This document shows, one piece after another, positions 11,709 through 29,801 of a stretch of DNA of 33,929 nt (positions are counted from its first letter, which is position 1; each line of letters begins with the position of its first letter). The stretch lies in NCBI GenBank assembly GCA_902727905.1, contig CACVAR010000149.1, positions 1 to 33,929 on the forward strand. The letters run 5' to 3'. This DNA is from an uncultured Sulfurovum sp. (GTDB taxonomy: Bacteria > Campylobacterota > Campylobacteria > Campylobacterales > Sulfurovaceae). Position numbers and translations under genes: made by a program. The notes beneath the pieces were generated by a model. The model saw nothing but the letters and a program-made list of their open reading frames with translations, did not search any database and was not told the DNA's origin.

Positions 11709-11872
11709 CCTTTTTTTCTAATTTGTAGAATAGCAAAAAGTGAATCAAGATAGTTTTAAATTAGAGTAAATATTTATTAGTTTTACTTATATTATAACAG
11801 TAATTGTTACTTTATAAAGTAGTTAAGCTATAGTACAAGAGAAGATTTATAGAAATCTAAAAGGTATTGCTT

Positions 11873-14800
11873 ATGGAAAATGAAAGATTTGAGATAGTAG
11901 GAATTGGTGCTAGTGCTGGTGGGTTTGAGGCACTGCAACTTTTTATCAAGAATTTAGAGTTAAAACAAGACATAGCTTATATTATTGCCCAACATCTCGA
12001 CCCCAAACAACCGACTATGTTGGTAGAACTTTTAGCAAAATCTACAAAAATTCCTATTACAAAAGTAATAGATGGGGAAATACCTCAAAAGAATCATATC
12101 TATATCTGTCCTCAAAACAAAAACATTACCCTTGTTGATTTTCGCTTTAGACTCACTGCTCCTGAAGTTAGAATTATGCCTAAACCATCTGTCAATATCT
12201 TCTTTAGCTCTTTAGCCAAAGATTTAGAGAATTTAGCTGTTGGTGTTATTCTATCAGGAACAGGTAGTGATGGGGCAGAAGGAATTAAAGCCATTAAAAA
12301 TGCAGGGGGCATCACCATTGCCCAAGAAGAAAAAAGTGCTAAATACCCATCTATGCCAAAGTCATCAATTGAGACAGGTTATGTAGATGCTGTCCTTACA
12401 CCTGAACAGATGGCAATTGAGATACCAAAGATTATAAAATCTCCTAGAATTTTAGAAGAGATCAGTGATGTACCTAAAAATCTTGACCGTATCTATGATT
12501 TACTCTTAATGAAAGTAAAAATTGATTTTTCAGACTATAAGCTCTCAACCATTCAACGAAGAATAGAAAGAAGAATGAGTGTCACACAAACAGAGTCTTT
12601 AGAAGAGTACGTAACTGTCTTAGAAAAATCAAAAAAAGAGATTCACCTACTCCATAAAGATTTACTGGTCATTGTAACCTCATTTTTTAGAAACAAAGAA
12701 GCTTTTGAAGCATTAGAAAAAGTCATTGCTAATAAGTTAAATACCTATAGTGACACCATAAGAGTTTGGATATCAGGATGTGCTACAGGGGAAGAAGCCT
12801 ATACCATAGCAATGTTATTACATAAGCTTTTAAAGCAAAAAGGTATTGAAAAAAAGATACAAATATTTGCAACAGACATTAGTGATGAAGCCATTATAAA
12901 AGCACGTGCAGGAACTTTTATTAAAGAAGAGATTGAGAATATAGACAACTATTATATTAAGAACTATTTTGTAAAAAAAGATGAATATTATGAGATAAGT
13001 AAACAGATACGAGACATGATAATTTTTTCAACACATGATATTGTTAAGGATCCAGCTTTTTTAAAAATTGATCTCATAAGTTGTAGAAATCTTTTAATCT
13101 ATTTTAATAATAGTCTGCAAAAAAGAATTTTTTCTATTTTTCATCACTCATTAAACAGTAATGGCGTTCTCTTTTTAGGAAAAAGTGAAAGTACTTCAAA
13201 TCTATTGCACTATTTTAAAAATATAGATTCTAAGTGGAAAATATTTTCAAAAGAAAACACACTCTCTTCCCCAAACATTACTAATATGACCTATTATCCT
13301 AAAAGATATCCTCGAAACTATTTACAAAAGCCCATGAAGGAACCCATCAATAAGAACGATAAAAAATCAATGATTTTTGATGCCATAAACCTGTCAATAA
13401 CAAAAGCCTTTGCCAATGACTTTTTAATTGTAGATAGAAACAATCAAATTGTATTTACCAATGGGGAGATTAATAAGTACATAAAAATTCCTGTTGGAAA
13501 CTTCAATAACGATGTCTTTTCATTTATAAATGATGACATCAGAATCGATTTAAGGGCAATTCTCTCAAAAGCAAAAAGAGAGTTAGTCTCTAGTAACCAA
13601 AGAGTACGAACCACCTTAAATGGTAGTAGTACCCTACAATATATCAATATTTTAGCATTTTCCTTAGAAGAAAATGAAGTTTTGGATGATGCTATTTGTA
13701 TTATGTTCATAGAGAGTTCTGATAAAATAGATACACAAAATATTACCGTTAACAAAAATAGTGAACATGCCCTTTATGAGATGGAAAATGAACTTCTGTT
13801 AATGAAAGAAAGACTTCAAACAACCAATGAAGAACTTGAAACAACCAACGAAGAACTGCAGTCTACCAATGAAGAGTTACAAAGTTCAAATGAAGAACTC
13901 CAATCTACCAATGAAGAGCTTCAAACATCAAATGAAGAGCTTCAAAGTTCAAACGAAGAGTTAACTACTGTTAATGATGAATTAGAGGTAAGGAGTTTAG
14001 AGTTAAGAGTCTCAAATACCGACCTTGAAAACACCTTTAATACCCTACATTTTGGTGTGGTGATTCTTGATAAAAAATTAAAAATACGAAAATACACGGA
14101 TGATATCAATAAAATTTTTGATATACGCATTTCAGATATTGGTGAAACCATAAATTCTGTTCAGTTTTATGGTAAAAAAGAGAACTTAAAAATGCTCTTA
14201 CTAGCGTGTTTAACAGAAAAGAAAGTTTATAACTTTGAGTTAATCTGCAGAAATGAAATCTATAATGCTGTGTTTGAACCCTATTTAAACGAGCAAAATA
14301 ATGTAGATGGCTTAATTTTAAGCTTTTACAATATTTCTAAGCTAAAAGAAAATGAACAAAAACTACTAAAAACAACACTTGAATTAGAGCGACATAAACA
14401 TAATTTAGAAGAAATTGTAGACATAAGAACTAAAAAACTTGAAAAATCGCATAGTGATATAGAAAATCTTTTAAACAGTGTCAACAACATCATTGTTGTT
14501 TCTAAAAATGGACAAGAACTCATTAATGCTAATCAAAAGTTTTATGACTTTTTTAAAGAGTATCAATCCCTAGATGAATTTAATGAAAGACATGATTGCA
14601 TATGTGAATTTTTTGAGATTTGTGATGAAAGTGATGACTTTATATATAGTGAAAAAGTTATGAAAAACAATCTCAACTGGGTAGACTTTATCTTAAGTTC
14701 TAAAAATAAAATGTTTAAAGCCAAGATTATAAAAGAAGAAAAGACTTTTATTTTTGACTTAAAAGTAACATTGATGCCAGACAATGATAATCTAAACTAT

Positions 14801-15595
14801 ATCATCGCCATGAATGATATCACCCTTTTACATGAATACCAAACATCTTTAAAGCTAAAAGTAGAAGCAGAAACAAAAAGTAGACTTGAACAAGAAAAAT
14901 TTTTAATTCAACAAAGTAAACTCGCATCCATGGGAGAGATGATAGGAAACATTGCCCATCAATGGAGACAACCCCTAAACTCTTTAAGTGCTTTAAATAT
15001 TGGACTCTCACTTAAACACCAAAAAGGTCGAATCCCCTTTGAAGAGATGACATTATTTGAAAAAAAGTCAAGTATTATTATCCAAAGAATGAGTAAAACC
15101 ATTGATGATTTTAGAAACTTTTTTGCGCCTAATAAAGTGTCTGAGACTTTTATGCTAAAAGAGGTCATAGAGGAAGCAACGCAATTCATACAACCTTCTT
15201 ATAATATCAACCATATTAAACTCATTAACCATGGTTCAAGTAACATCAAGATAAAAAATCATAAAAATGAACTCATACAAGTTTTACTGAACCTCTTTAA
15301 CAATGCTAAAGATGCCATAGTCGAGTTTAACCCCAATCATGGATTAGTCATTATTAATATCATAGAATTAGAAAAGCATGTACAAATAACGGTTGAAGAC
15401 AATGGAGGAGGAATTAAACAAGAAGTCATTGACAGGGTTTTTGAACCCTATTTTAGTACAAAATTTAAAGATGAAGGAACAGGTATTGGACTCTATATGT
15501 CAAAAATGATTATCGAAGAGTCCATGCAGGGAGAACTAAAGTTAGAAAACTGTAAAGAGGGTGTTTTAGCCACCATTACTTTACAAAACATCTAA
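11873..15595 (+). CDS. CheB methylesterase-CheR methyltransferase-coiled coil-PAS-histidine kinase fusion
   Basis: CheB: GIGASAGGFEAL/AQHLDP/GTGSDGAEGIKAIKNAGG; CheR: RRIERRM, GCATGEEAYTIAM, FATDIS, DLISCRNLLIYF; heptads NEELQST; HisKA GEMIGNIAHQWRQPLNSL; HATPase NLFNNAKDAI, EDNGGGI, GTGIGLYMSKMI. ATG at 11873 preferred over TTG at 11867. Confidence 0.95.
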   Translation: MENERFEIVGIGASAGGFEALQLFIKNLELKQDIAYIIAQHLDPKQPTMLVELLAKSTKIPITKVIDGEIPQKNHIYICPQNKNITLVDFRFRLTAPEVRIMPKPSVNIFFSSLAKDLENLAVGVILSGTGSDGAEGIKAIKNAGGITIAQEEKSAKYPSMPKSSIETGYVDAVLTPEQMAIEIPKIIKSPRILEEISDVPKNLDRIYDLLLMKVKIDFSDYKLSTIQRRIERRMSVTQTESLEEYVTVLEKSKKEIHLLHKDLLVIVTSFFRNKEAFEALEKVIANKLNTYSDTIRVWISGCATGEEAYTIAMLLHKLLKQKGIEKKIQIFATDISDEAIIKARAGTFIKEEIENIDNYYIKNYFVKKDEYYEISKQIRDMIIFSTHDIVKDPAFLKIDLISCRNLLIYFNNSLQKRIFSIFHHSLNSNGVLFLGKSESTSNLLHYFKNIDSKWKIFSKENTLSSPNITNMTYYPKRYPRNYLQKPMKEPINKNDKKSMIFDAINLSITKAFANDFLIVDRNNQIVFTNGEINKYIKIPVGNFNNDVFSFINDDIRIDLRAILSKAKRELVSSNQRVRTTLNGSSTLQYINILAFSLEENEVLDDAICIMFIESSDKIDTQNITVNKNSEHALYEMENELLLMKERLQTTNEELETTNEELQSTNEELQSSNEELQSTNEELQTSNEELQSSNEELTTVNDELEVRSLELRVSNTDLENTFNTLHFGVVILDKKLKIRKYTDDINKIFDIRISDIGETINSVQFYGKKENLKMLLLACLTEKKVYNFELICRNEIYNAVFEPYLNEQNNVDGLILSFYNISKLKENEQKLLKTTLELERHKHNLEEIVDIRTKKLEKSHSDIENLLNSVNNIIVVSKNGQELINANQKFYDFFKEYQSLDEFNERHDCICEFFEICDESDDFIYSEKVMKNNLNWVDFILSSKNKMFKAKIIKEEKTFIFDLKVTLMPDNDNLNYIIAMNDITLLHEYQTSLKLKVEAETKSRLEQEKFLIQQSKLASMGEMIGNIAHQWRQPLNSLSALNIGLSLKHQKGRIPFEEMTLFEKKSSIIIQRMSKTIDDFRNFFAPNKVSETFMLKEVIEEATQFIQPSYNINHIKLINHGSSNIKIKNHKNELIQVLLNLFNNAKDAIVEFNPNHGLVIINIIELEKHVQITVEDNGGGIKQEVIDRVFEPYFSTKFKDEGTGIGLYMSKMIIEESMQGELKLENCKEGVLATITLQNI
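13820..13987 (+). repeat. Eight 21-nt tandem units encoding heptads (T/S)(T/S)NEEL(Q/E)
   Basis: TTNEELE TTNEELQ STNEELQ SSNEELQ STNEELQ TSNEELQ SSNEELT TVNDELE. Confidence 0.95.
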
Positions 15596-15613: not shown

Positions 15614-18600
15614 TTAACTTTCAAAACTAATCGTTGCCAATGCTCCTCCAGCATGATTTTCTAATGTCAAGTATCCTGACATAGACTCTTCTACAATCAT
15701 TTTTGCCATGTAAAGCCCTATGCCTGTACCGTCACTTTGAAACTTAGTGGTAAAGTAAGGTTCAAAAACTTTTTTAACTATCGCATCTGAAATACCACCA
15801 GCATTATCTTGTATTGTAATGTCTATGCCTTTATTTGTCTTTTTTGAGGATACTTTTACTTTTCGGTCATTAATCTTATTTTCCACTAAAGCATCTTTTG
15901 CATTGTTCAGTAAAATCAATAAAACCTGCATTAACTCATTTTTATAACTCTCCAGTACCAAGTCTTTTTCACACTCAAATATAAACTTAATATTATTACT
16001 AATATAACTGGCGTTAACAAAGTCCACACACTCCTTAACTGCTTCTTCCACTTTAAACTCTACTTTTTCTTTATCGGCTCTGAAAAAGTTTTTAAAGTCA
16101 TTAATCGTTGAACTCATTTTTTGTATAAGTTTATTGGATTTTTCAGTAAAGGCTTCCATATCATTCTTATTAAAATCATTATCAGAATATTTTGAAGAGA
16201 GTAGGTAAACAGAGGCACTTAAAGCATTAAGAGGTTGTCTCCATTGATGGGCAATGTTTCCTATCATCTCTCCCATGGATGCCATTTTACTTTGTTGCTG
16301 TAACATTGTTTCATGCTCTCTAAGTATCGTAATGTCTGTAAACGTGACAACTTGAGCATCTTTGTATATCTTTTTACTTGCTTTAACAACAAATACATGC
16401 TCTAAGCCATTCTTGTCATCTATGTAAACTTCATGAATTTCGTTGCTATATTTATTAATATAATCTATCCATAGAAGTCCATCCATTTCTGCTTTTAGAT
16501 GTTTTACATTTTTTTTATCTTTAAATAAGTCACAAATACAAAGATGTACTTTTAAAAAACTCTCAAAACTCTCGTAACCAAACATTGCTAAAAATTGTTT
16601 GTTTCCACTGGTTATTTTTTTACCATCTGTCAAAATAGTAATGGTTTCTTGTTCATCAAGAAGTTTTGTCACCCTATTTTTCTCTTCATTAATTGCTTTT
16701 TGACTCTCTATTAACTTCTGTTCACTCTCTTTGATGTACGTAACATCCATAAAAGTTAAAATAGCACCATCATAAATAAGCCTTCTATTCTCTCTATTCA
16801 CATAAGGATAAATTGTAATCTGATAATGAACCCCTTCATGTTGTAGTTCTAGTACACTTTTTTCTCTTTTCTCTATAACGTCAAGAATTAACTCTCTAAT
16901 GTTTCCTAAATCAATTTTAGTACCAACTGTAGTAATCAACTCATGAATGTTTTGATTGCTAATCTCAAATATCTCTTTAGCTTCTTGGGTAAATGATTTA
17001 ATTTTAAGATTATTATCGACAATAATCATACCAAAATCCAAAACCCTAAAAACATTTTCAAAGTCACTGTTACTCTCTCTAAGAAGAGAAGATTTTGTCT
17101 CTAGCTCTTCATTGACTGTTATGAGTTCCTCATTGGAACTTTGTAACTCTTCATTAGAAGTTTCTAGTTCTTCATTGGTACTTTGTAACTCTTCGTTAGA
17201 GCTTTGTAACTCTTCATTCGTACTTTGTAACTCCTCATTGGTGGTCTCTAGTTCTTCTATGGTTACCTGCAATTGCTCTTTTACAAGCATAAGCTCAGTC
17301 TCTAGTTCCCTTGCATAGTTAGAAGTAACGACTTTATCGTCTTTAATAATAACCACCTCATCAGAACTCTCCATAAATACAAGGGCCACAGAATCAGAAA
17401 GGAAATCATTGTTCTGTAGAGGAAAAACAATAATATTAATGTACTTTATTTTGTCTCCATTATCATCTACTTCTACCTTAACCCTTTTGTTAAAAGAAGC
17501 TGAAGATTTTCTAGCTTTAGCAATGAGTACCCTAATGTCCAGTCTAATTTCGTCTTTAATAAAAGAAAAAACATCTAAATTAAAGTTCCCTATGGGAAAG
17601 TCAATGTATCTTCTCGCATTCCCACCAATATAAGTAATGGAATCATTTCTATCAATAATTAAATAATCTTTAAAAAGTTTATCTTTAATAGAACTTGCCA
17701 TAGAACTTTCTATGGCAGAATCTTTGTCTAAAACTTTTTCTTTTTCATGAACTACTTTTTGATTACCTGTATAAATTCTTTTAGAGTAACGTTTTGGATA
17801 GTAGGCTAAGTTTCCAACGTTTAAATCCTTAGTATTTGCATCTTTTTTAAATATCTTGGCTTGATGATCTACCGTAATATACAAATCCTTTAAAGAGTTA
17901 ACAGCTTCACTTTTTCCCAAAAAGAGTATGCCAGAGTTTTTTAATGAATGGTGAAAAATAGAGATAATACGTGTCTGTAGTGTTGTGTTAAAATAAATTA
18001 ATAAATTACGACATGAAATAAGGTCTACTGAAAGAAAGGGAGGATCTTTAACTAAATCATGTACTGAAAATATAAGTGATTCTCTCACCCTTTTACTTAT
18101 TTCATATCGTTCATCTACAAGTTCAAAATAGTTATCAATATAAAAACTATCTATATGCTCTATCTCCTCTGGGGTGAAAGAGTTATTTCTAGCTGTATCT
18201 ATGGCTTGTTCACTAATGTCAGTGGCAAATATTTGTATGGTTTTCTTGACATCATATTCATCTAAAATCTTATGAATCACCATCGCAATACTATAGGCCT
18301 CTTCTCCTGTGGCACAACCAGCAACCCATACCCTAATACGCTTTTCATTTGAAGTAACCAAAGAGAGTATGGACTTTTCTAAAGACTCAAAATAAGCCTT
18401 ATCCCTAAAAAAGGAGGTGACAATAATAAGTAAATCTTTATAAAGTAGCGTAAGCTCATTTGAAGATTTTTTTAACAACTCTATATAGGCTTGTAAACTA
18501 GAAGACCTATTTACTACCATTCTTCGCTCTATTCGCCTTTGAATCGTCCCTAACTTATAATCTGTAAAATCAACATCAAACTTCTCTATAAGTAAATCAT

Positions 18601-19234
18601 AGATGGTATCAATACTCCCAACACTCACAATACTTTCATGGGGAGCATCAGGTAAGGTTAAAATTTTCAATATATCTTCTGCCATCTCTTTAGGGGTCAA
18701 AATAGCATCTACATCCCCAGTACGTATGGCAGCTTTAGGCATAGACGAGTACTTTGCACTCTTTTCATCTTGCGCAATGGTTATTCCTCCTGCATTTTTA
18801 ATCGCTTGTATGCCCTCACAACCATCACTTCCTGTACCTGAAAATATAATTCCCAAACATCTTGATTCAAATGTTTTAGCCAATGAAGTAAAAAAGATAT
18901 TTACCGAGGGTTTTGGGTATTGTTTTTTTAAAGGAGGAGAGAGTTTAAACAAATTATCTTTCATCGTTAAGTTATTATTAGGAGGACAGATGTATATTTT
19001 GTTCGCAACCACAGGCATATTGTCTTCAATCATCACAATAGAGATATCTTCAATATCACGGGCAAGTAATTCTAAGAGCATGGTAGGTCTAGCTGGATCT
19101 AAATGCTGTGTAATCACATAGGCAATGTGTTTGTTTTTACTGGTATTAAGGTGTGAAAAAAACTCTTGCATAGCTTCATAACCACCAGCACTCGCACCAA
19201 TGCCAACCACTCTTAAGTTTTCTTGTTTTTTCAT
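15614..19234 (-). CDS. CheB-CheR-coiled coil-PAS-histidine kinase fusion, paralog of the preceding gene, convergent
   Basis: [50 protein letters not shown]; (S/T)(S/T)NEELQ heptads; [60 protein letters not shown]. Confidence 0.95.
   Translation of the reverse strand: [1206 protein letters not shown]
17099..17266 (-). repeat. Seven to eight 21-nt tandem units encoding NEEL heptads, inverted relative to 13820-13987
   Basis: (VTIEELE) [49 protein letters not shown] on the minus strand. Confidence 0.95.
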
Positions 19235-21698: not shown

Positions 21699-22755
21699 TA
21701 TCATGCCCACACCTTACTTTATTATGTATGAAAACAAACTCATACAAAACCTCAAAAAACTAAATGAGCTAGAAGAAAAATCCAACATTCACATCTTGCA
21801 CACGCTTAAGAGCTTTAATCAAAGCTCTGTATTACCTATTATCAGTGCTAAACTCTCAGGCATGAGCATTACAAGCCCTAAAGAGTTAGAAATGGCTAAA
21901 AACTCCCATGCTCAGCATATTCATCTTTATGCTCCTGCATTTACAAAATCCTCTTTAGACAACATGCTCAGACACATCTCAACCCTTTCACTCAACTCTT
22001 TAAACCAATGGAAACGCTTTCAAACACTGCCTAGCTCTAAAGGCTTACGTATTAATCCCAAACTTCATTTAGTCATTCCCAAACATTGTAACCCCAACCT
22101 AAAAGCCTCACGTTTAGGTGTTGATTATATTGAGTTTTTAGAACAATATCATAGTAACCCTAAGCAATTTACAACATTAGAAGGTTTACATTTTCATGCA
22201 CTCTTTCAAGACAAAGGTGAAGGCTTAAAACTTTTATTTGAACATCTCAACGCTCACTATCAAGATGTTTTACCTCAACTCAAATGGCTCAATCTTGGTG
22301 GGGGACATGACTTTACAAGCCTTGACTATGACGTTAATCTACTCATCAATGAGCTTAACAGTTTTCAGACAAAGTACCCAAAGCTAAAAATTTATTTTGA
22401 ACCAGGAGAATCTGTAACTAAGGGATGTGGAGACTTTGTTAGTAGCGTTTTAGACATTGTCACTATCGACAAATTGAACATTGCCATTCTTGACACCTCC
22501 ATTGAAACCCATCTTCTTGATGTTGCCATAGTACAACAAAAACTCAAAGTTAAAAATACCCAAGAAAAACCTACTCCTCACCTTTATGAACTCACAGGAA
22601 ACTCTTGTTTACAAGGCGACATCATTGGTACTTACTGCTTTACAGAAGCTTTAAATATAGGGCAAAGAATTGTCTTTGAAGACATGATGCCTTACACCAT
22701 GGTCAAGATGACTGAGTTTAATGGCATGGAAAAGGCTGGGTTTTATCTACACTAA
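21691..22755 (+). CDS. nspC: Carboxynorspermidine/carboxyspermidine decarboxylase-like PLP enzyme
   Basis: TPYFIMYENKLIQNL, LKSFNQSSVLPIISAKLSGMSITSPKELEMA, PQLKWLNLGGGHDFTSLDYDVNLLI, FEPGESV, LTGNSCLQGDIIGTYCF, YTMVKMTEFNGM; ATG at 21691 overlaps upstream stop by 8 nt. Confidence 0.8.
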   Translation: MNNIMPTPYFIMYENKLIQNLKKLNELEEKSNIHILHTLKSFNQSSVLPIISAKLSGMSITSPKELEMAKNSHAQHIHLYAPAFTKSSLDNMLRHISTLSLNSLNQWKRFQTLPSSKGLRINPKLHLVIPKHCNPNLKASRLGVDYIEFLEQYHSNPKQFTTLEGLHFHALFQDKGEGLKLLFEHLNAHYQDVLPQLKWLNLGGGHDFTSLDYDVNLLINELNSFQTKYPKLKIYFEPGESVTKGCGDFVSSVLDIVTIDKLNIAILDTSIETHLLDVAIVQQKLKVKNTQEKPTPHLYELTGNSCLQGDIIGTYCFTEALNIGQRIVFEDMMPYTMVKMTEFNGMEKAGFYLH

Positions 22756-25695
22756 ATTCATCTCAGAAATCATCTGTGACAACTCATTGCCATTTATCTT
22801 TGTTCTAAAAGAAACCTCTATCCCTTTTTGCTCCTTTAAACTCTCAAAAAAACGTTCAGCACTTTTAATTTTGAGTTTTTCAGCATTCCCAATCTCTGAA
22901 AAAGCATCATAACCTTTCGTCTCAACGACCAAATAAAGTTCTGATGATTCCCCATTGTCTATAACATAAGCAAAATCAGGACTGTAACTTTTACCATGTG
23001 GGGTAGGAATCTTTAACGATGGAAGCTTTCCAAATACCGTAATCTTTTGATGCATCGATTCATCTATGGTCACTTTTTCTATTTCAGAATCTACTTCCAT
23101 GAACTTTTCATCATAAATGGACTTTTCTAAAACGCTTTTATTACGTATGGGATAAACCTCTTTACCTAACGCTCCCCCTTTTAAAGCCTCCCTAAGATTT
23201 CCATTTTTATCTATGAACGCCGTATTGTTCACCTTTACTTCTTTAATATCATAAGAGATTTTATTCACAATCACTTCATAAATAGCACCTATAAAGATAT
23301 CTTTTAACCGTCCCAATGCCATGTTTTCATTGGAAGCGATGAGTAGAAACTTCTCTTTGTTAATTTTAGATAAAACCGTACTAACCGTTTGCATACTTAA
23401 CTTAGTCGCATTTGACAAGGACTTCACAAACTCATACAGGGTAAAGATTGAGGTACTCTCTACCTTAATTGTCTCATCATAACTGTGATGAACTTCAAGG
23501 TTTTCCACCTCTTTGTCAGTTCTTATAATAATGTCTTGCCCACCAATGCTAAAGTCATTATTAATACTTTCAATAGCACTTCCAATCAACACTTCGCTAT
23601 CTATTTCATATTTTATGGTCGCTTCATGGTTCAAACTCTCCCAAAGTGTTTGAAAACGTTTAAAGTTTTGAGCATTGATTTTAATATGTTGTTTTTTCTT
23701 AGCTTGACGACTTTCTTTAGTTTTTATACGGTTAGTGGTCTTAAAAAATGCATCAAAGTAGGCTTTTAGCTTTTGATTATCCACACCTTTCATCTCTATC
23801 TCTTTTAAAGCTTTAACTTCTTTATCATACGCTTCTTTGGAAATTGTTATTTCACTCATTCCATCATCATCATCAATGCTAATAAACCCTAAATCTTCAA
23901 GTTCATCTAAAAGCCTTACAGCAAATCTAGCTGTTGTGGCTATCTCATTTTCTACCATAATCTCTTCATTAAACAGTTTAGCTACCTTTTTAACACTATG
24001 CTCACTTATCTCATTTTGTATGGAGGCTACAAAGTCTTCTTCTGTTGAAGGTACGACCACAAAAAGTTCATTCACAAAGTCAAAATCTTCATGCTCTTTG
24101 GTAATACGCTCTCCCTTTTGATTCACAGCCAAACGCAATCCACGTCCTATCTGTTGGAGTTTGGTTATTTTGGAGTTAGAGGGGGCTAGTTTACAAAGGG
24201 TAAAGACATTAGGGTTATCCCATCCCTCTTGTAATGCCCATTGAGAAAAAATAAAACGTAAATCCGTATCAAAGGACAACAACTCCTCTTTTTTATTCAG
24301 TATAAGAGCAATCGCTTCTTCTTCATCTTTAATTTTAGACGATTTGGCAAAATACCCATGATGAACTTGTGCTATATTTTCTTTACTTCGCTCTAAATAA
24401 GTCCTGTAAGCCTCATCTAAATTTTTAGTCAAAACTTCATTTAAATTTTTCAGATATAGTTTTTCAAAAAGCTCTGCCAGTACGCCTTGGCTACCATCGT
24501 CTTGTAAATACTTACTCACCCCATCTATAAAAAAGAGACAAACAGCTTTAATGCCCAGTTTAAAAAGCTCCTCTTCACGTTCAAAATGGTTTTTAATGGC
24601 TCTGTCGACAATCACCTTTTGCATCTCATCAAACAACACCCCATAACTCTCAACCTCATCAAGTAGCAGTGAAATACCATTAGAAAAGAGTATCTCTTTT
24701 TTAGTGATTTTCTCTACCACATAAGCATTTAAATACGCTATGCCTACCACTTCTCCAAAGTTATCACCTTTTGACAAAGCACAAGTTTTATTTTTTGCTT
24801 CTATGTCTTTGTAGGCAATGGTTGCTACATAATCTTTTTGGGTTCTTCCCACAACTTTTTTAAGTTCTAAAGTATGATCATCGATGTTTTTGTTTCCAAT
24901 GGTATCTACCGAAATACCTTTAACCAATCCTCCTGAAAAAGCGTCAATACTGTCCAAGGTATAAAGTAAATTTTTATAAACATCATCTTTAAACGTCGCC
25001 CCAAACCGAAGCGTAAAAAGTGGATTGAATTTTTTAAGATATTCGGTTGTCTGCTTCCCCTCAAAACGGTGAGGCTCATCAATGACAATCACAGGTCTTA
25101 ACTCTGCCACAGCTTCCATATAAGACTTGGCACGACCTATTAAAGACTGCTCAACACCACGTTTGTTAATGGTGTTTTTTGCTTTATTAAACGATTGATA
25201 GGTTGAGACCAATACTGAAATATTTTGGTTCGAGTTATTCACATAGTTTCCAATGGTCTTGTCACTGTAGTTAAAAACAGAAATGCTTTTACCATACTCT
25301 TTGACAAAAAACTCTTTGGTTATGGCTATGTTTTTAAGTGTTCCTTGACGAATGGCATTGGAGGGAACCAAGATTATAAACTTACTCAATCCATAGTCAC
25401 GATTTAGCCGATAAATAGATTCTAAAAAAGTAAACGTCTTCCCCGTTCCTGTCTCCATAAGTGTGTCAAGAACCAACTCATCTTTGATGCTTACGTCTCC
25501 AATGCTTATAGCATTTTGTTCACGTACTTCTTTAATATTTTCAGCCAACATGGGTTTACTCGCTGTTAGCGAAAAACTTGGGTTACTTTTAGCATTACTA
25601 TTGGGTTTAAAGGCTATGTTTTTAAAGACATTGGAGATACTATTAACAGCTTTTTCTTGATAATCTAGTCGGTCAAATTTTATTTTTAGGCTCAT
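22747..25695 (-). CDS. res: Type III restriction-modification restriction/helicase subunit
   Basis: Walker A METGTGKTFTFLE, VIDEPHRFEG, QIGRGLRLAVNQ, C-terminal PD...ETK nuclease motif (SPDFAYVI..LYLVVETKG). Confidence 0.93.
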   Translation of the reverse strand: MSLKIKFDRLDYQEKAVNSISNVFKNIAFKPNSNAKSNPSFSLTASKPMLAENIKEVREQNAISIGDVSIKDELVLDTLMETGTGKTFTFLESIYRLNRDYGLSKFIILVPSNAIRQGTLKNIAITKEFFVKEYGKSISVFNYSDKTIGNYVNNSNQNISVLVSTYQSFNKAKNTINKRGVEQSLIGRAKSYMEAVAELRPVIVIDEPHRFEGKQTTEYLKKFNPLFTLRFGATFKDDVYKNLLYTLDSIDAFSGGLVKGISVDTIGNKNIDDHTLELKKVVGRTQKDYVATIAYKDIEAKNKTCALSKGDNFGEVVGIAYLNAYVVEKITKKEILFSNGISLLLDEVESYGVLFDEMQKVIVDRAIKNHFEREEELFKLGIKAVCLFFIDGVSKYLQDDGSQGVLAELFEKLYLKNLNEVLTKNLDEAYRTYLERSKENIAQVHHGYFAKSSKIKDEEEAIALILNKKEELLSFDTDLRFIFSQWALQEGWDNPNVFTLCKLAPSNSKITKLQQIGRGLRLAVNQKGERITKEHEDFDFVNELFVVVPSTEEDFVASIQNEISEHSVKKVAKLFNEEIMVENEIATTARFAVRLLDELEDLGFISIDDDDGMSEITISKEAYDKEVKALKEIEMKGVDNQKLKAYFDAFFKTTNRIKTKESRQAKKKQHIKINAQNFKRFQTLWESLNHEATIKYEIDSEVLIGSAIESINNDFSIGGQDIIIRTDKEVENLEVHHSYDETIKVESTSIFTLYEFVKSLSNATKLSMQTVSTVLSKINKEKFLLIASNENMALGRLKDIFIGAIYEVIVNKISYDIKEVKVNNTAFIDKNGNLREALKGGALGKEVYPIRNKSVLEKSIYDEKFMEVDSEIEKVTIDESMHQKITVFGKLPSLKIPTPHGKSYSPDFAYVIDNGESSELYLVVETKGYDAFSEIGNAEKLKIKSAERFFESLKEQKGIEVSFRTKINGNELSQMISEMNLV

Positions 25696-25730
25696 TTTTT
25701 CTCTTTTTATTTTTCACATGATATATCATG

Positions 25731-25824
25731 AAAGTAACTTATAGATTTGCTTAAGTTACTTTAACGAACTAAAGTAACTTATAAATTATCTTATGTTACT
25801 TTAACGAACTAAAGTAACTTATAA
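25731..25824. repeat. 40-bp tandem repeat (2 full units plus a partial third) built of palindromes
   Basis: Units at 25731, 25771, 25811 beginning AAAGTAACTTATA and ending GTTACTTTAACGAACT; perfect 12-bp stem TAAGTTACTTTA-acgaac-TAAAGTAACTTA at 25752-25781. Confidence 0.95.
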
Positions 25825-25827
25825 GTA

Positions 25828-26955
25828 CTAAAATAGCTCCAAATACTCTTCAAAGACAAAACTTTGATTTCTTTGAAAACCTGTAAATTCTACCAAAATA
25901 CCTTTTTCTTCAAAATCTTTTAATAACGCTCTTGCCGTCTTAGCACTTACCTCTAAAATTTCCATACATATTTTTACATTAATCACAGGGTGTCCGTAAA
26001 GGTACTCAACAACTTTTTGTGCATTTTGAGCTTTTTTACCAAAGTCAAAAAGCTTGATATCTATGTCACTTTTAAGTTTTAGAATACCATTAAAGGTCTC
26101 TATGCTACTTTTAGAGGTCTCAATGACAGCTGTTAAAAAGAACTTTACCCAATGTACTAAGTCATTAGAAGCACGAACCACTGTTAAAGCATCATAGTAT
26201 GCTCCTTTATTGCGTTCAAAAAAATCAGAAAGGTAAAGTGATGGATGCTGAAGTAACCCATTGCTTACAAGATAAAGGGTAATCAACAGTCGTCCTATAC
26301 GACCATTACCATCTAAGAAAGGATGTATTGTTTCAAACTGATAATGAATAATTGCCAATTTTATAAGATGTGGAACATTTAACGTATCGTTATGAATAAA
26401 ACTTTCTAAATCACTCATAAGCTCTTCTACTTCATCTTGATGAGGGGGAATATAAAAGGCATTATTAATGTTGCTTCCACCTATCCAATTTTGAGAAATT
26501 CTAAATGCACCAGGTTGCTTTTTTTCACCTCTCACCCCAGAGAGGAGTTGCGTATGAGTCTGTTTAATCAGTCGCTTACTTATGGGTAAGACTTCTAGTG
26601 ATTCTATGGCTTCACTCATCGCCTTAATGTAGTTTTGAACTTCCTCCCAATCATCACGCCGTTCAGGGTCAATACTTTCTCTCTCCATTAATGCTTCATC
26701 CATCTGTGTTTGAGTACCTTCTATTCTACTTGAAGTATTAGCTTCTTTCGTAATGTGCATTTGAACAAAAAGGTCAACATTTGGCACGATTAGTGTATAC
26801 GCATTTAATTGTCCTAGTAAAATATTGGCTTCTTCCAACAATACATTAATACTTGCATCATTCCATGTAAATGTGTGGTTTATTTTTTCAGGAGAAAAAC
26901 TATGATATTTATACTGTTCTTTGTAATGTCCTGCTATAAAATCTTTAAGTTCCAT
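25828..26955 (-). CDS. Fic domain protein (DUF4172/COG3177-like) with C-terminal winged-helix-like domain
   Basis: HPFLDGNGRIGRLL Fic motif; N-terminal inhibitory-type motif TSSRIEGTQTQ; C-terminal NVKICMEILEVSAKTARALLKDFEEKGIL. Confidence 0.93.
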   Translation of the reverse strand: MELKDFIAGHYKEQYKYHSFSPEKINHTFTWNDASINVLLEEANILLGQLNAYTLIVPNVDLFVQMHITKEANTSSRIEGTQTQMDEALMERESIDPERRDDWEEVQNYIKAMSEAIESLEVLPISKRLIKQTHTQLLSGVRGEKKQPGAFRISQNWIGGSNINNAFYIPPHQDEVEELMSDLESFIHNDTLNVPHLIKLAIIHYQFETIHPFLDGNGRIGRLLITLYLVSNGLLQHPSLYLSDFFERNKGAYYDALTVVRASNDLVHWVKFFLTAVIETSKSSIETFNGILKLKSDIDIKLFDFGKKAQNAQKVVEYLYGHPVINVKICMEILEVSAKTARALLKDFEEKGILVEFTGFQRNQSFVFEEYLELF

Positions 26956-26958
26956 TTT

Positions 26959-27963
26959 TTATCTCCTACTCTTTTCTATTAGCTCATTAACTGACTTATC
27001 AAAGTCAGATTCATAGTTTTGGTTTTGAATCTGTTTAAACTTATCATATTCACCTTCTGCTTTTTGTTTAGCCTCTTTATGAGAAATAGCACCCAAGTTA
27101 TCTAAAACTTTATACTCATTAAAATCAAGAAACTTGTCCACACTCTTCTGTAAACCTAACATGTCCAAAACTACTTCTCTCTCCAATAAACCTTCAATAT
27201 AGTCAAAGTAAGCACTAGAAATACGCTCTAACGCTTTAATAGACTTTTCATCTAAGTAATTCTTAGCAGTAGCAACATCAGACTTAATCACCTTACCATC
27301 AGGTGAGTTCTTCCATGTGTGTAACCCCATATTTGGCTTTTGACTGTCTACCGTGTAAAAAACTATCTCAGCAGCTGTTTGTCCAGCTATGGCAAAATGA
27401 AACTTGTTTTGTATATGAGCATAAAAGTTTTTAGCAATGCTAGAGTCTTTGTCATAGTCAATACAACATTCTGCAAATATATCGGTAATTTGTTGATAGA
27501 TACGCCGTTCACTATTGCGTATTTCTCGTATGCGTTGTAGTAACTCTTTGAAGTAGTCTTTACCAAAGTGTTGACCATTTTTAAGACGTTCATCGTCTAG
27601 TACAAAACCTTTTTGAACAAACTCAGAAAGTGTTTTAGTTGCCCATATTCTAAACTGTGTTGCCTCTTTAGAGCTAACCCTATAACCTACTGAAATAATC
27701 ATATCAAGATTATAAAACTCTATCTCTCTTTTGACTTCACGGTTACCCTCTTTTTGAACTTGTGCAATTTTTGCACAAGTTGAATCAGCTAACTCTTCAT
27801 CTAATAAAATATTTTTAATATGCTTGGTGACAACTGACCTATCAACACCAAATAAATCTGCTATCTGTTTTTGAGAAAGCCAAAAACTATCATCTTGATA
27901 AACAAAATCTAAATGACTGGTATTGATTGCTGTTTTGTAAAATATAATCTTATGTCTTTTCAT
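26959..27963 (-). CDS. rhuM: RhuM family protein
   Basis: FWLSQKQIADLFGVDRSVVTKHIKNI..ELADSTCAKIAQVQKEGNREVKREIEFYNLDMIISVGYRV, ATQFRIWAT, AGQTAAEIV characteristic of RhuM. Confidence 0.92.
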   Translation of the reverse strand: MKRHKIIFYKTAINTSHLDFVYQDDSFWLSQKQIADLFGVDRSVVTKHIKNILLDEELADSTCAKIAQVQKEGNREVKREIEFYNLDMIISVGYRVSSKEATQFRIWATKTLSEFVQKGFVLDDERLKNGQHFGKDYFKELLQRIREIRNSERRIYQQITDIFAECCIDYDKDSSIAKNFYAHIQNKFHFAIAGQTAAEIVFYTVDSQKPNMGLHTWKNSPDGKVIKSDVATAKNYLDEKSIKALERISSAYFDYIEGLLEREVVLDMLGLQKSVDKFLDFNEYKVLDNLGAISHKEAKQKAEGEYDKFKQIQNQNYESDFDKSVNELIEKSRR

Positions 27964-27965
27964 CC

Positions 27966-29801
27966 CTAGCCCCTAAATCTCAACTTATCACCCTTAATGC
28001 CCACTTGTTCCACAGCAGATTCAAGTTCCAGTGTAAACTTGTCGTTGTCCACTAAAGGAGAGTAAACGGTAATGTATTCTAAACCATTTAAGGCTTTTAG
28101 GTGTGTGACAAGTTCATCTATGTTTAAAGAGCCTAAAATAAAAAGTACATTTTCAACCCTATAAAGTTTTTGTTCCATTAAAACCTCAACCTTTGAACTA
28201 AGCGACAAGCTTTCAGCAACCAAAAGGTTATAAAGTATCTCTTCATGGCTCTCTATACTTGGTGTTTGGCTAAAGCTCAAAAGGTCTTCTTGCGATGCTT
28301 GGTCTAGTGGTTTTTGGTAGAGTTTTTGTTTCACATCTTCTACTACTTCAAAGGTTCTAAAACCTATATCTCCTTGACCTATCTGCTCTCCTGCACGGTC
28401 TATGCGTTCCTTGGTAATGTCAAAGATGGTCTCATATCCTGCTTTTCGTGCTTCTGACTTTTCAGGTGTTTCTTCTGCCCATTGCACCAAAATAAACTTT
28501 CGATTTCCATTGTCTTTGGCATTAAAATCCATAACAGCATGAGCTGTTGTACCTGAACCTGCAAAAAAGTCTAGGATGATGTCATTACTTTTTGTAGATA
28601 AGTAAAGAATTCTGTTTAATAGCTTTGTTGGCTTTGGTGTGTCAAAATAAATATTACCATCAAATAAGTCTCTAAGTTCTTTTGTAGCATCTTGATTATG
28701 CCCAACATCTGTATACTTCCATATAGTTAAAGGAACTGTACCATCTTGAACTTCCGTTAAAAATCTTTTTATTGATGGTGTACTATTTCCATCGCTCCCG
28801 AACCAAATTCGATTATCTTTAACAAGTTCTTGAAACTTACTTTTGGAAACTCTCCAACACTTATTCTTAGGGGGGTTAACTATCTTTCCAGATGGTAGTT
28901 TAATTGAATAGTCATAACTTTCTGAATATGTCTTTACTGATAAATCCCCTGATTTCCAATTACCTCTGGAGTCATTATCGGGATTTTTGTATCTTTTATT
29001 TTGTTCATCTGTTCGAGGTAATAATCGTGGTCTCCAAATTTCTTTATTTTTAGTATAAATTAAAACATAGTCATGGTTATCACTAAACCACTTTGCATCA
29101 TTTGACGGACTATATTTTTTCTCCCAAATAATACTAGCCACAAAATTCTCCTCCCCAAAAACCTCATCACAAAGTAATCGAAGCTGAGCCACTTCATTGT
29201 CGTCTATACTTATAAAAATAACCCCATCCTCTTTAAGTAAATCTTTTGCCAATAACAAACGTGGGTACATAAAACTAAGCCAACCAGAGTGCGTCTTTGC
29301 TCCTTGAATGTTTTCGATGTAGTCCACATACTCTTTGTCATAACCCAAAGCGTCTAAAGTTTCTTCGGTTGTCTCGGTAAAATTGTCATTGTAAACAAAG
29401 CCATCATTTTTCGTGTTGTAAGGTGGGTCGATGTATATCATTTTTATGGCTTCAAAGTAGTTCTGCCGTAAAATCTTTAACGCATCTAAGTTATCACCTT
29501 TTAGAAGTATGTTGCCTGTTGCACCCCAATCTTTACTCTGCTCTTCTAAAGGTTTTAAAACTTTTTGATTTTTGCTAAATGCTGTATGGTACGCCTCTTT
29601 TTTACCAACCCAATTTAAACCATAACCCTCTTCTTTTGTTTCAGCTAAAGAGGGTTCTAAATCCATTTGTAGTTTCTCTCTGTCAATGAGGTACTTACCA
29701 TTTTCATCGATGCTAACAGCATGGGGAAAAAGTCTTTTAAGTTCTTTATATTTGTTGTCGTTAACACTTTGTTCGTCTATTACATTCTTGTTTAATGGCA
29801 T
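27966..29801 (-). CDS. mod: Type III restriction-modification DNA methyltransferase
   Basis: MIYIDPPYNTKNDGFVYND (DPPY), VIFISIDDNE, DIILDFFAGSGTTAHAVMD, RKFILVQWAEETPEKSEARKAGYETI. Confidence 0.95.
   Translation of the reverse strand: MPLNKNVIDEQSVNDNKYKELKRLFPHAVSIDENGKYLIDREKLQMDLEPSLAETKEEGYGLNWVGKKEAYHTAFSKNQKVLKPLEEQSKDWGATGNILLKGDNLDALKILRQNYFEAIKMIYIDPPYNTKNDGFVYNDNFTETTEETLDALGYDKEYVDYIENIQGAKTHSGWLSFMYPRLLLAKDLLKEDGVIFISIDDNEVAQLRLLCDEVFGEENFVASIIWEKKYSPSNDAKWFSDNHDYVLIYTKNKEIWRPRLLPRTDEQNKRYKNPDNDSRGNWKSGDLSVKTYSESYDYSIKLPSGKIVNPPKNKCWRVSKSKFQELVKDNRIWFGSDGNSTPSIKRFLTEVQDGTVPLTIWKYTDVGHNQDATKELRDLFDGNIYFDTPKPTKLLNRILYLSTKSNDIILDFFAGSGTTAHAVMDFNAKDNGNRKFILVQWAEETPEKSEARKAGYETIFDITKERIDRAGEQIGQGDIGFRTFEVVEDVKQKLYQKPLDQASQEDLLSFSQTPSIESHEEILYNLLVAESLSLSSKVEVLMEQKLYRVENVLFILGSLNIDELVTHLKALNGLEYITVYSPLVDNDKFTLELESAVEQVGIKGDKLRFRG

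Follow-up and report, generated by a model that had tools for sequence, protein, structure and literature searches.

Our analysis suggests that the tandem array between fic and res in a type III restriction-modification locus of an uncultured Sulfurovum sp. is probably a DNA operator whose multiple half-sites are read by the winged-helix domain of the adjacent Fic protein. Among homologous loci, the array sequence tracks the recognition helix of Fic, and paralogues differ in both, so that a multi-site operator for the Fic winged helix-turn-helix (wHTH) is very probable. From the same comparisons, we predict with high confidence that Fic binds the array, while we regard it as evenly balanced whether the main effect of this binding would be repression of the downstream gene. 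A sequence-only reading had proposed an operator, an RNA switch, or a recombinational copy-number switch. Of these, the operator is strongly supported, since the AlphaFold2 (AF2) model of Fic ends in a wHTH, arrays recur beside fic genes, and their sequence follows the helix at residues 338-350.

The window (the whole stretch of 33,929 nucleotides that was analysed) comes from a draft genome of 422 contigs and carries the locus on its reverse strand. The genes are the type III methyltransferase gene mod (27966 to 29801; Pfam, PADLOC), rhuM (26959 to 27963; Virulence_RhuM in Pfam, PDC-S05 in PADLOC), fic (25828 to 26955; 375 aa, Fic_N, Fic and C-terminal wHTH domains with a SoFic fold by Pfam, PADLOC, AF2, and Foldseek), and res, encoding the 982-aa restriction subunit (22747 to 25695; domain and defence models). 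The intergenic gaps are 2 bp between mod and rhuM, 3 bp between rhuM and fic, and 132 bp between fic and res. Therefore, the array does lie in the only sizeable gap of the cluster, as had been noted from the sequence. The start of res is ~35 bp beyond the end of the array, which places the putative operator directly 5' of the restriction gene. Scans for a sigma-70-like promoter or a terminator in the fic/res gap gave nothing above chance level. RhuM matches the PADLOC candidate defence family PDC-S05 with E=2.5e-140. Elsewhere, the window holds two very large convergent open reading frames (11867 to 15595, forward; 15614 to 19234, reverse) with 21-bp tandem repeats within their coding sequence, the latter encoding a CheB-CheR-PAS-histidine-kinase fusion (Pfam).

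The array (25730 to 25824, reverse strand; defined by sequence comparison and TRF) begins 6 bp past the fic stop codon and is therefore part of the fic 3' end. It consists of five half-sites of ~12 bp that alternate in orientation: half-site 1, TAAGTTACTTTA (25810 to 25821, reverse); half-site 2, TATGTTACTTTA (25792 to 25803, forward); half-site 3, TAAGTTACTTTA (25770 to 25781, reverse); half-site 4, TAAGTTACTTTA (25752 to 25763, forward); and half-site 5, TAAGTTACTTTC (25730 to 25741, reverse). In short form, the half-site reads TAAGTTACTTT or TAAGTTAC. Each 40-bp unit is a 30-bp palindrome (a 12-bp half-site, a 6-bp spacer, and the inverted half-site) followed by 10 bp, and the window holds two and a half such units, with adjacent half-sites 18-22 bp, or 61-75 A, apart from centre to centre. 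TRF calls the repeat at 25731-25824 with a period of 40, 2.3 copies, and 92% matches, confirming the two full units and one partial unit described earlier; the perfect 12-bp stem (25752-25763 with 25770-25781) and the perfect 11-bp pairing (25731-25741 with 25752-25762) were likewise found as described. The two full units share 90% identity, and AAAGTAACTTATA is present three times, exactly 40 bp apart. When scored for strict geometry (three half-sites in 40-bp register), the window array reaches 24/24, exceeding all 100 dinucleotide shuffles, and no further palindromic pairs of its half-site were found elsewhere in the window. A perfect 14-bp palindrome, CATGATATATCATG (25717 to 25730, no strand), lies between the array and res; its sequence is unlike the half-sites, and it forms a hairpin in the fold.

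The Fic domain of the adjacent protein matches PF02661 (Pfam, E=5e-20), and the catalytic motif HPFLDGNGRIGR (residues 211-222; 26290 to 26325, reverse; matched to HPFx(D/E)GNGRxxR) is intact. The class II inhibitory motif SSRIEG (residues 75-80; 26716 to 26733, reverse; matched to (S/T)xxxE(G/N), the definition given in PMC10628234) is intact as well. The AF2 model (mean pLDDT 85) ends in a wHTH with helices at 306-319, 327-334, and 338-350 and a wing strand, so that the recognition helix begins at residue 338; its codons for residues 338-350 (AKTARALLKDFEE), assigned from AF2 secondary structure, lie at 25906 to 25944 on the reverse strand. The closest folds are the SoFic structures 3ZCN and 3EQX (Foldseek, 351-352 columns), which are also among the best PDB sequence matches, with only 27% identity over the fold. 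The protein matches the PADLOC SoFic model with E=1e-118 and scores 165.9 bits against the NCBIfam SoFic equivalog, below its cut-off of 550 bits.

We scanned 84,980 genomes and obtained 80 further fic loci encoding proteins 55-81% identical to the window Fic, which makes 81 loci including the window. The hosts belong to Campylobacterota, Gamma-, Alpha-, and Deltaproteobacteria, Chlorobi, Ignavibacteria, Cloacimonadota, Omnitrophota, and Planctomycetes, and the gene neighbours of fic mostly differ between loci. Among the carriers of the module is an isolate, Sulfurospirillum diekertiae (L068). A strict test, requiring three 8-bp half-sites in 40-bp palindromic register, was positive at 40/79 fic 3' ends vs 0/71 control 3' ends, taken from the other genes of these loci, so that arrays do recur beside fic homologues in other genomes. 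With a general motif finder, 56/81 loci reached p<0.05. By inspection, 68 loci have a readable half-site array, and ~10 of the 81 lack a recognised one. As an exact sequence, the window repeat is unique in the phylum sample (a search of 298 genomes returned the window itself and one unrelated single palindrome), but close fic homologues carry 40-bp arrays with half-sites of their own in the same place, so that the refuting condition set by the sequence-only reading, a lack of repeats at every homologous locus, does not hold. We dropped a reading of the array as unique, given this divergence of sequence within a conserved layout at homologous loci.

In the common layout, a 12-bp half-site starting with TA (TANNTANN..), a 6-bp spacer, the inverted half-site, and 10 bp recur every 40 bp, for one to four 40-base units. 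The position of the first half-site relative to the fic stop is fixed within groups (median -6 in group B and -12 in group C; the usual value is -12 for TAGTTAAAGTTA loci and -6 for AGTTAAGGGAAA loci), and the arrays of groups B and C overlap the last fic codons. Half-site variants across loci include TATGTAAG, TGTGTAAA, TAGTTAAAG, TAGTTAAGG, TAGTTCAAG, TATTTTACTTT, TATTATACTTT, TATTTTAAG, and TATTAAAG. Each locus's own motif occurs as pairs upstream of fic in only 3/68 loci, and elsewhere in the loci it is not found beyond chance (17 pairs vs 33 for the reversed motif). Thus, the 3' array appears to be the sole near-locus address of Fic, and this confinement fits a road-block to, or an occlusion of, the restriction gene.

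Several searches and more distant proteins complete this survey. The count of AGTAACTT near fic homologues was nothing notable, scans of viral sequences for window-type and TATGTAA-type arrays returned none, and a search among relatives of G447 found nothing. Four deltaproteobacterial fic homologues with the helix NQRTIRN (L099, L108, L115, L121) have no recognisable 3' array. A distant Fic clade on viral contigs (L143-L157), with FNT/YNS helices, has GAAATAA/TTATTTC repeats 5' of fic in 9/9 cases and none 3'. Fic proteins of two cyanobacterial plasmids (L167 and L169, on pSYSX and pAQ6; helix YPNAN) have common TATTAACGAAA-type and TTTTCxGATAATAT-type elements 5' of fic, which are close to the TATTAAAG sites of YPS/IPS-helix proteins (L047-L049, L091, L156).

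We then considered to which gene the array belongs. Among close fic homologues (58-81% identical), palindromic 40-bp arrays stand in the same place, within ~10 bp of the fic stop, and in the same-family genomes with the closest fic homologues, the stretches examined hold no homologue of mod, rhuM, or res. Conversely, three close type III relatives with Res proteins 65-67% identical to that of the window (mod and res adjacent in L178, rhuM and res adjacent in L177, mod-X-res in L179) lack both fic and the array. Since arrays accompany fic homologues and are absent from fic-less type III relatives, we conclude that the array belongs to fic. The tie to res is therefore looser than the sequence-only reading proposed: the array is in front of res, yet fic-less type III relatives lack it and solo fic genes keep it. 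In L177, L178, and L179, the interval between mod and res is empty or holds rhuM or another gene, and it seems to be a hotspot where accessory genes insert.

Across loci, the half-site co-varies with the recognition helix. For 28 loci, the half-site consensus was read by eye, the groups being set from the arrays before the helix sequences were viewed, and an automatic version agrees. Helices starting with THQ/SHQ go with TATGTAA, SKPTAN/STPTAN with TAGTTAA, xKATxSS with TAGTTCAA, TP(R/K)xAN with TATTTTAC, and NYVPAN with TATTATAC. At the level of single residues, H338 is found with TGTA (21/21), K338 or T338 with GT.. (34/34), P338 with TTTT (6/6), and Y338 with TTAT (2/2). No variable column of Fic explains half-site class better than residues 338 and 339, in 1st and 2nd place; with automatic half-sites at three thresholds, they rank 2nd and 1st, 2nd and 1st, and 4th and 1st, respectively. 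Half-site and helix remain correlated in a partial Mantel test with the catalytic core and the remainder of the C-terminal domain as controls (r=0.365, p=0.0005), also when a program makes every half-site call (r=0.17-0.35, p=0.001-0.007).

On the core tree, half-site class has undergone 19 or more changes. Two paralogues in one metagenome-assembled genome, each 5' of an hsdR gene, have cores that are 88% identical and differ in both helix and array (SKATTSS with TAGTTCAA in L069; THQTASK with TATGTAAA in L082). Eight K338 loci that played no part in deriving the association all have TAGT-type sites, seven of them 3' of fic and one (L135) 5' of it; searches of plasmids, phages, and E. coli for held-out H338 Fic proteins with TATGTAA-type sites gave no matches. 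All tree-based independent pairs are concordant, with 2-3 pairs on supported branches, too few for significance alone. The APC-corrected mutual information does not set the helix residues apart, because the lineage signal is strong. Altogether, these comparisons support the view that half-site, protein, and specificity evolve together as one fic-array module.

In 53 loci, the gene after the array shares the strand of fic, and in 12 it is convergent; the median gap is 133 bp. Among 45 downstream products scanned, the window Res included, 26 match ResIII and 21 match HSDR_N; others are DEAD-box or DruE-like helicases. HsdS is the upstream product in 18/45 loci, and in most loci fic stands directly behind hsdS or rhuM with hardly any gap. 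Therefore, the typical order is hsdS-fic-[array]-hsdR, with mod-rhuM-fic-[array]-res in the window, and the comparisons support a module that has come to lie between mod/rhuM and res in the window and, in other loci, between hsdS and hsdR or next to further defence helicases. Solo modules with no adjacent restriction gene also occur, e.g., between EamA and ABC-transporter genes (L084), by thymidylate synthase (L081), by glutathione synthetase (L107), and in L103 and L100; for several of them, the array is kept although the neighbour is convergent and unrelated. Solo pairs among unrelated genes imply that the array must matter to Fic itself and not only to res.

Under the operator explanation, Fic dimers would sit side by side along the array, on alternating half-sites ~20 bp (68 A) apart, and the bound row would lie across the path from fic to the next gene. 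At high Fic levels, transcription of the restriction or helicase gene would then be held back, either by a road-block or by an occluded promoter, and this delay of restriction would give methylation a head start. Against such control of res stand the negative promoter and terminator scans of the gap and the solo modules with a convergent, unrelated neighbour. Binding to the array may also keep the class II AMPylator DNA-bound and restrained. The closest precedent is CccR of Yersinia pseudotuberculosis, a type VI effector with a Fic domain and a C-terminal HTH, which binds as a dimer to two inverted 10-bp boxes of its own promoter, one 46-bp inverted repeat with an N26 spacer, and represses it; its recognition helices are ~70 A apart (PMC9755527). 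The window Fic shares with CccR the SoFic-like fold, class II inhibition, the C-terminal HTH, and inverted repeats beside its own gene, and the CccR spacing compares with the 61-75 A between neighbouring half-sites here. In contrast to the promoter site of CccR, the sites here comprise two to eight half-sites in 40-bp units, 3' of fic and before the restriction gene; CccR-like sites were not found in fic's own promoter, and nothing of the type VI effector kind was seen.

Other Fic proteins share parts of this picture. CbFic2 of Coxiella burnetii is, like the window protein, a class II Fic with a C-terminal HTH, and its DNA-driven dimerisation switches between AMPylation and deAMPylation; its DNA binding was measured on arbitrary oligomers, a cognate site array is not described, and DNA binding by SoFic had not been demonstrated, according to the same study (PMC10628234). 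SoFic of Shewanella oneidensis (SO_4266, PDB 3EQX/3ZCN) has the same three-domain architecture as the window protein and is a defence protein in PADLOC. E. coli Sofic has an antitoxin protein gene downstream (PMC12249575), and nothing corresponding to it was seen in the window locus.

C proteins, which control type II restriction genes, provide a further comparison. In those systems, the gene of a small regulator, an Xre-type HTH protein, and an operator lie before the restriction gene, and restriction is timed to follow modification. The window resembles this arrangement in having a putative operator directly before the restriction gene, as the restriction or helicase products downstream of the homologues (26/45) also suggest, whereas the putative regulator here is a 375-aa protein that joins a wHTH to an AMPylator, and it occurs in type I and type III loci. 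Similarly, the PrrC anticodon nuclease sits between hsdS and hsdR of EcoprrI, and fic likewise lodges a potential toxin between the S and R genes of type I systems, although the enzyme differs; we know of no 3' operator array for PrrC.

The strongest competitor to the operator explanation, which we consider possible but unlikely, is that the array acts as a DNA leash or antitoxin, with Fic dimers docked at their own 3' array and held inhibited or deAMPylating. Free Fic, arising from over-production or from loss or occupation of the array, would then AMPylate its targets, and any effect on res would be incidental. The locking of arrays to the fic stop, which in groups B and C extends to an overlap with the final codons of fic, the solo modules, the intact catalytic and inhibitory motifs of the window Fic, and the changes in activity and dimerisation of CbFic2 on DNA (PMC10628234) are all consistent with a leash. 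However, the co-directional bias of downstream genes (53:12) and their restriction or helicase products suggest a link to the next gene, and in distant Fic clades the sites are found 5' of fic, the usual arrangement for autoregulation.

Ordinary negative autoregulation of fic, with sites merely 3' rather than 5', is somewhat more doubtful still. It has a precedent in CccR, which represses its own promoter through inverted repeats (PMC9755527), and the upstream GAAATAA repeats of the distant clade would suit it. Among the close homologues, however, the own motif is scarcely ever paired upstream of fic, and a 3' site could not block initiation at an upstream promoter unless the DNA were looped. 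Moreover, fic is apparently devoid of a promoter of its own, because it follows hsdS or rhuM with hardly any gap in most loci.

We consider it improbable, and offer it speculatively, that the fic-array module is a mobile guard in which the array would serve as both cis antitoxin and sensor. The AMPylator would be harmless when leashed and would be released to halt growth if the restriction locus were attacked, titrated, or misregulated, guarding type I, type III, and other defence loci as PrrC guards EcoprrI.

The remaining readings are far less probable. An RNA switch, in which alternative hairpins of the fic-res transcript would limit Res translation, had been suggested from the repeats, and the strand does fold better than shuffles (z = -3.35), as any palindrome array would. 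Nevertheless, arm mismatches show no excess of G.U (51 G.U vs 57 A.C, p=0.63, in 167 palindromes), there is no Rfam match, the half-site sequence follows a protein helix, and arrays persist where the next gene is convergent, so this suggestion is not supported, and we regard it as very improbable. An operator for RhuM or another regulator of type III loci is slightly less credible again: rhuM is in the same operon, but the fic-less L177, L178, and L179 lack the array, arrays stand beside fic in type I and non-restriction loci, and RhuM is immediately upstream in 0/44 homologous loci. A recombinational copy-number switch or passive tandem duplication, for which the species-level range of one to four units between homologues and the 90% identity of the window units could be cited, is equally remote, given that units have diverged within many arrays while the 40-bp register and half-sites are retained, which points to selection on the sites.

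Returning to the operator for Fic, a regulator that combines Fic with a wHTH is of a known kind. What appears to be new, and is well supported by the comparisons, is the multi-site 3' array 5' of a restriction gene together with the helix-to-site code. Our literature search, with subscription papers and preprints outside it, found no description of arrays beside SoFic-type genes or in restriction loci, nor of such a control point. Our results predict that an AMPylator with docking sites exactly before the restriction gene is present in many defence loci of the type I, type III, and helicase kinds. SoFic-type proteins of defence loci, previously with no known DNA site, now have ~70 putative cognate arrays, and the readable code, in which residues 338 and 339 would specify half-site bases 3-6, makes DNA binding by the family directly testable, with L069 and L082 representing a helix swap already made by evolution.
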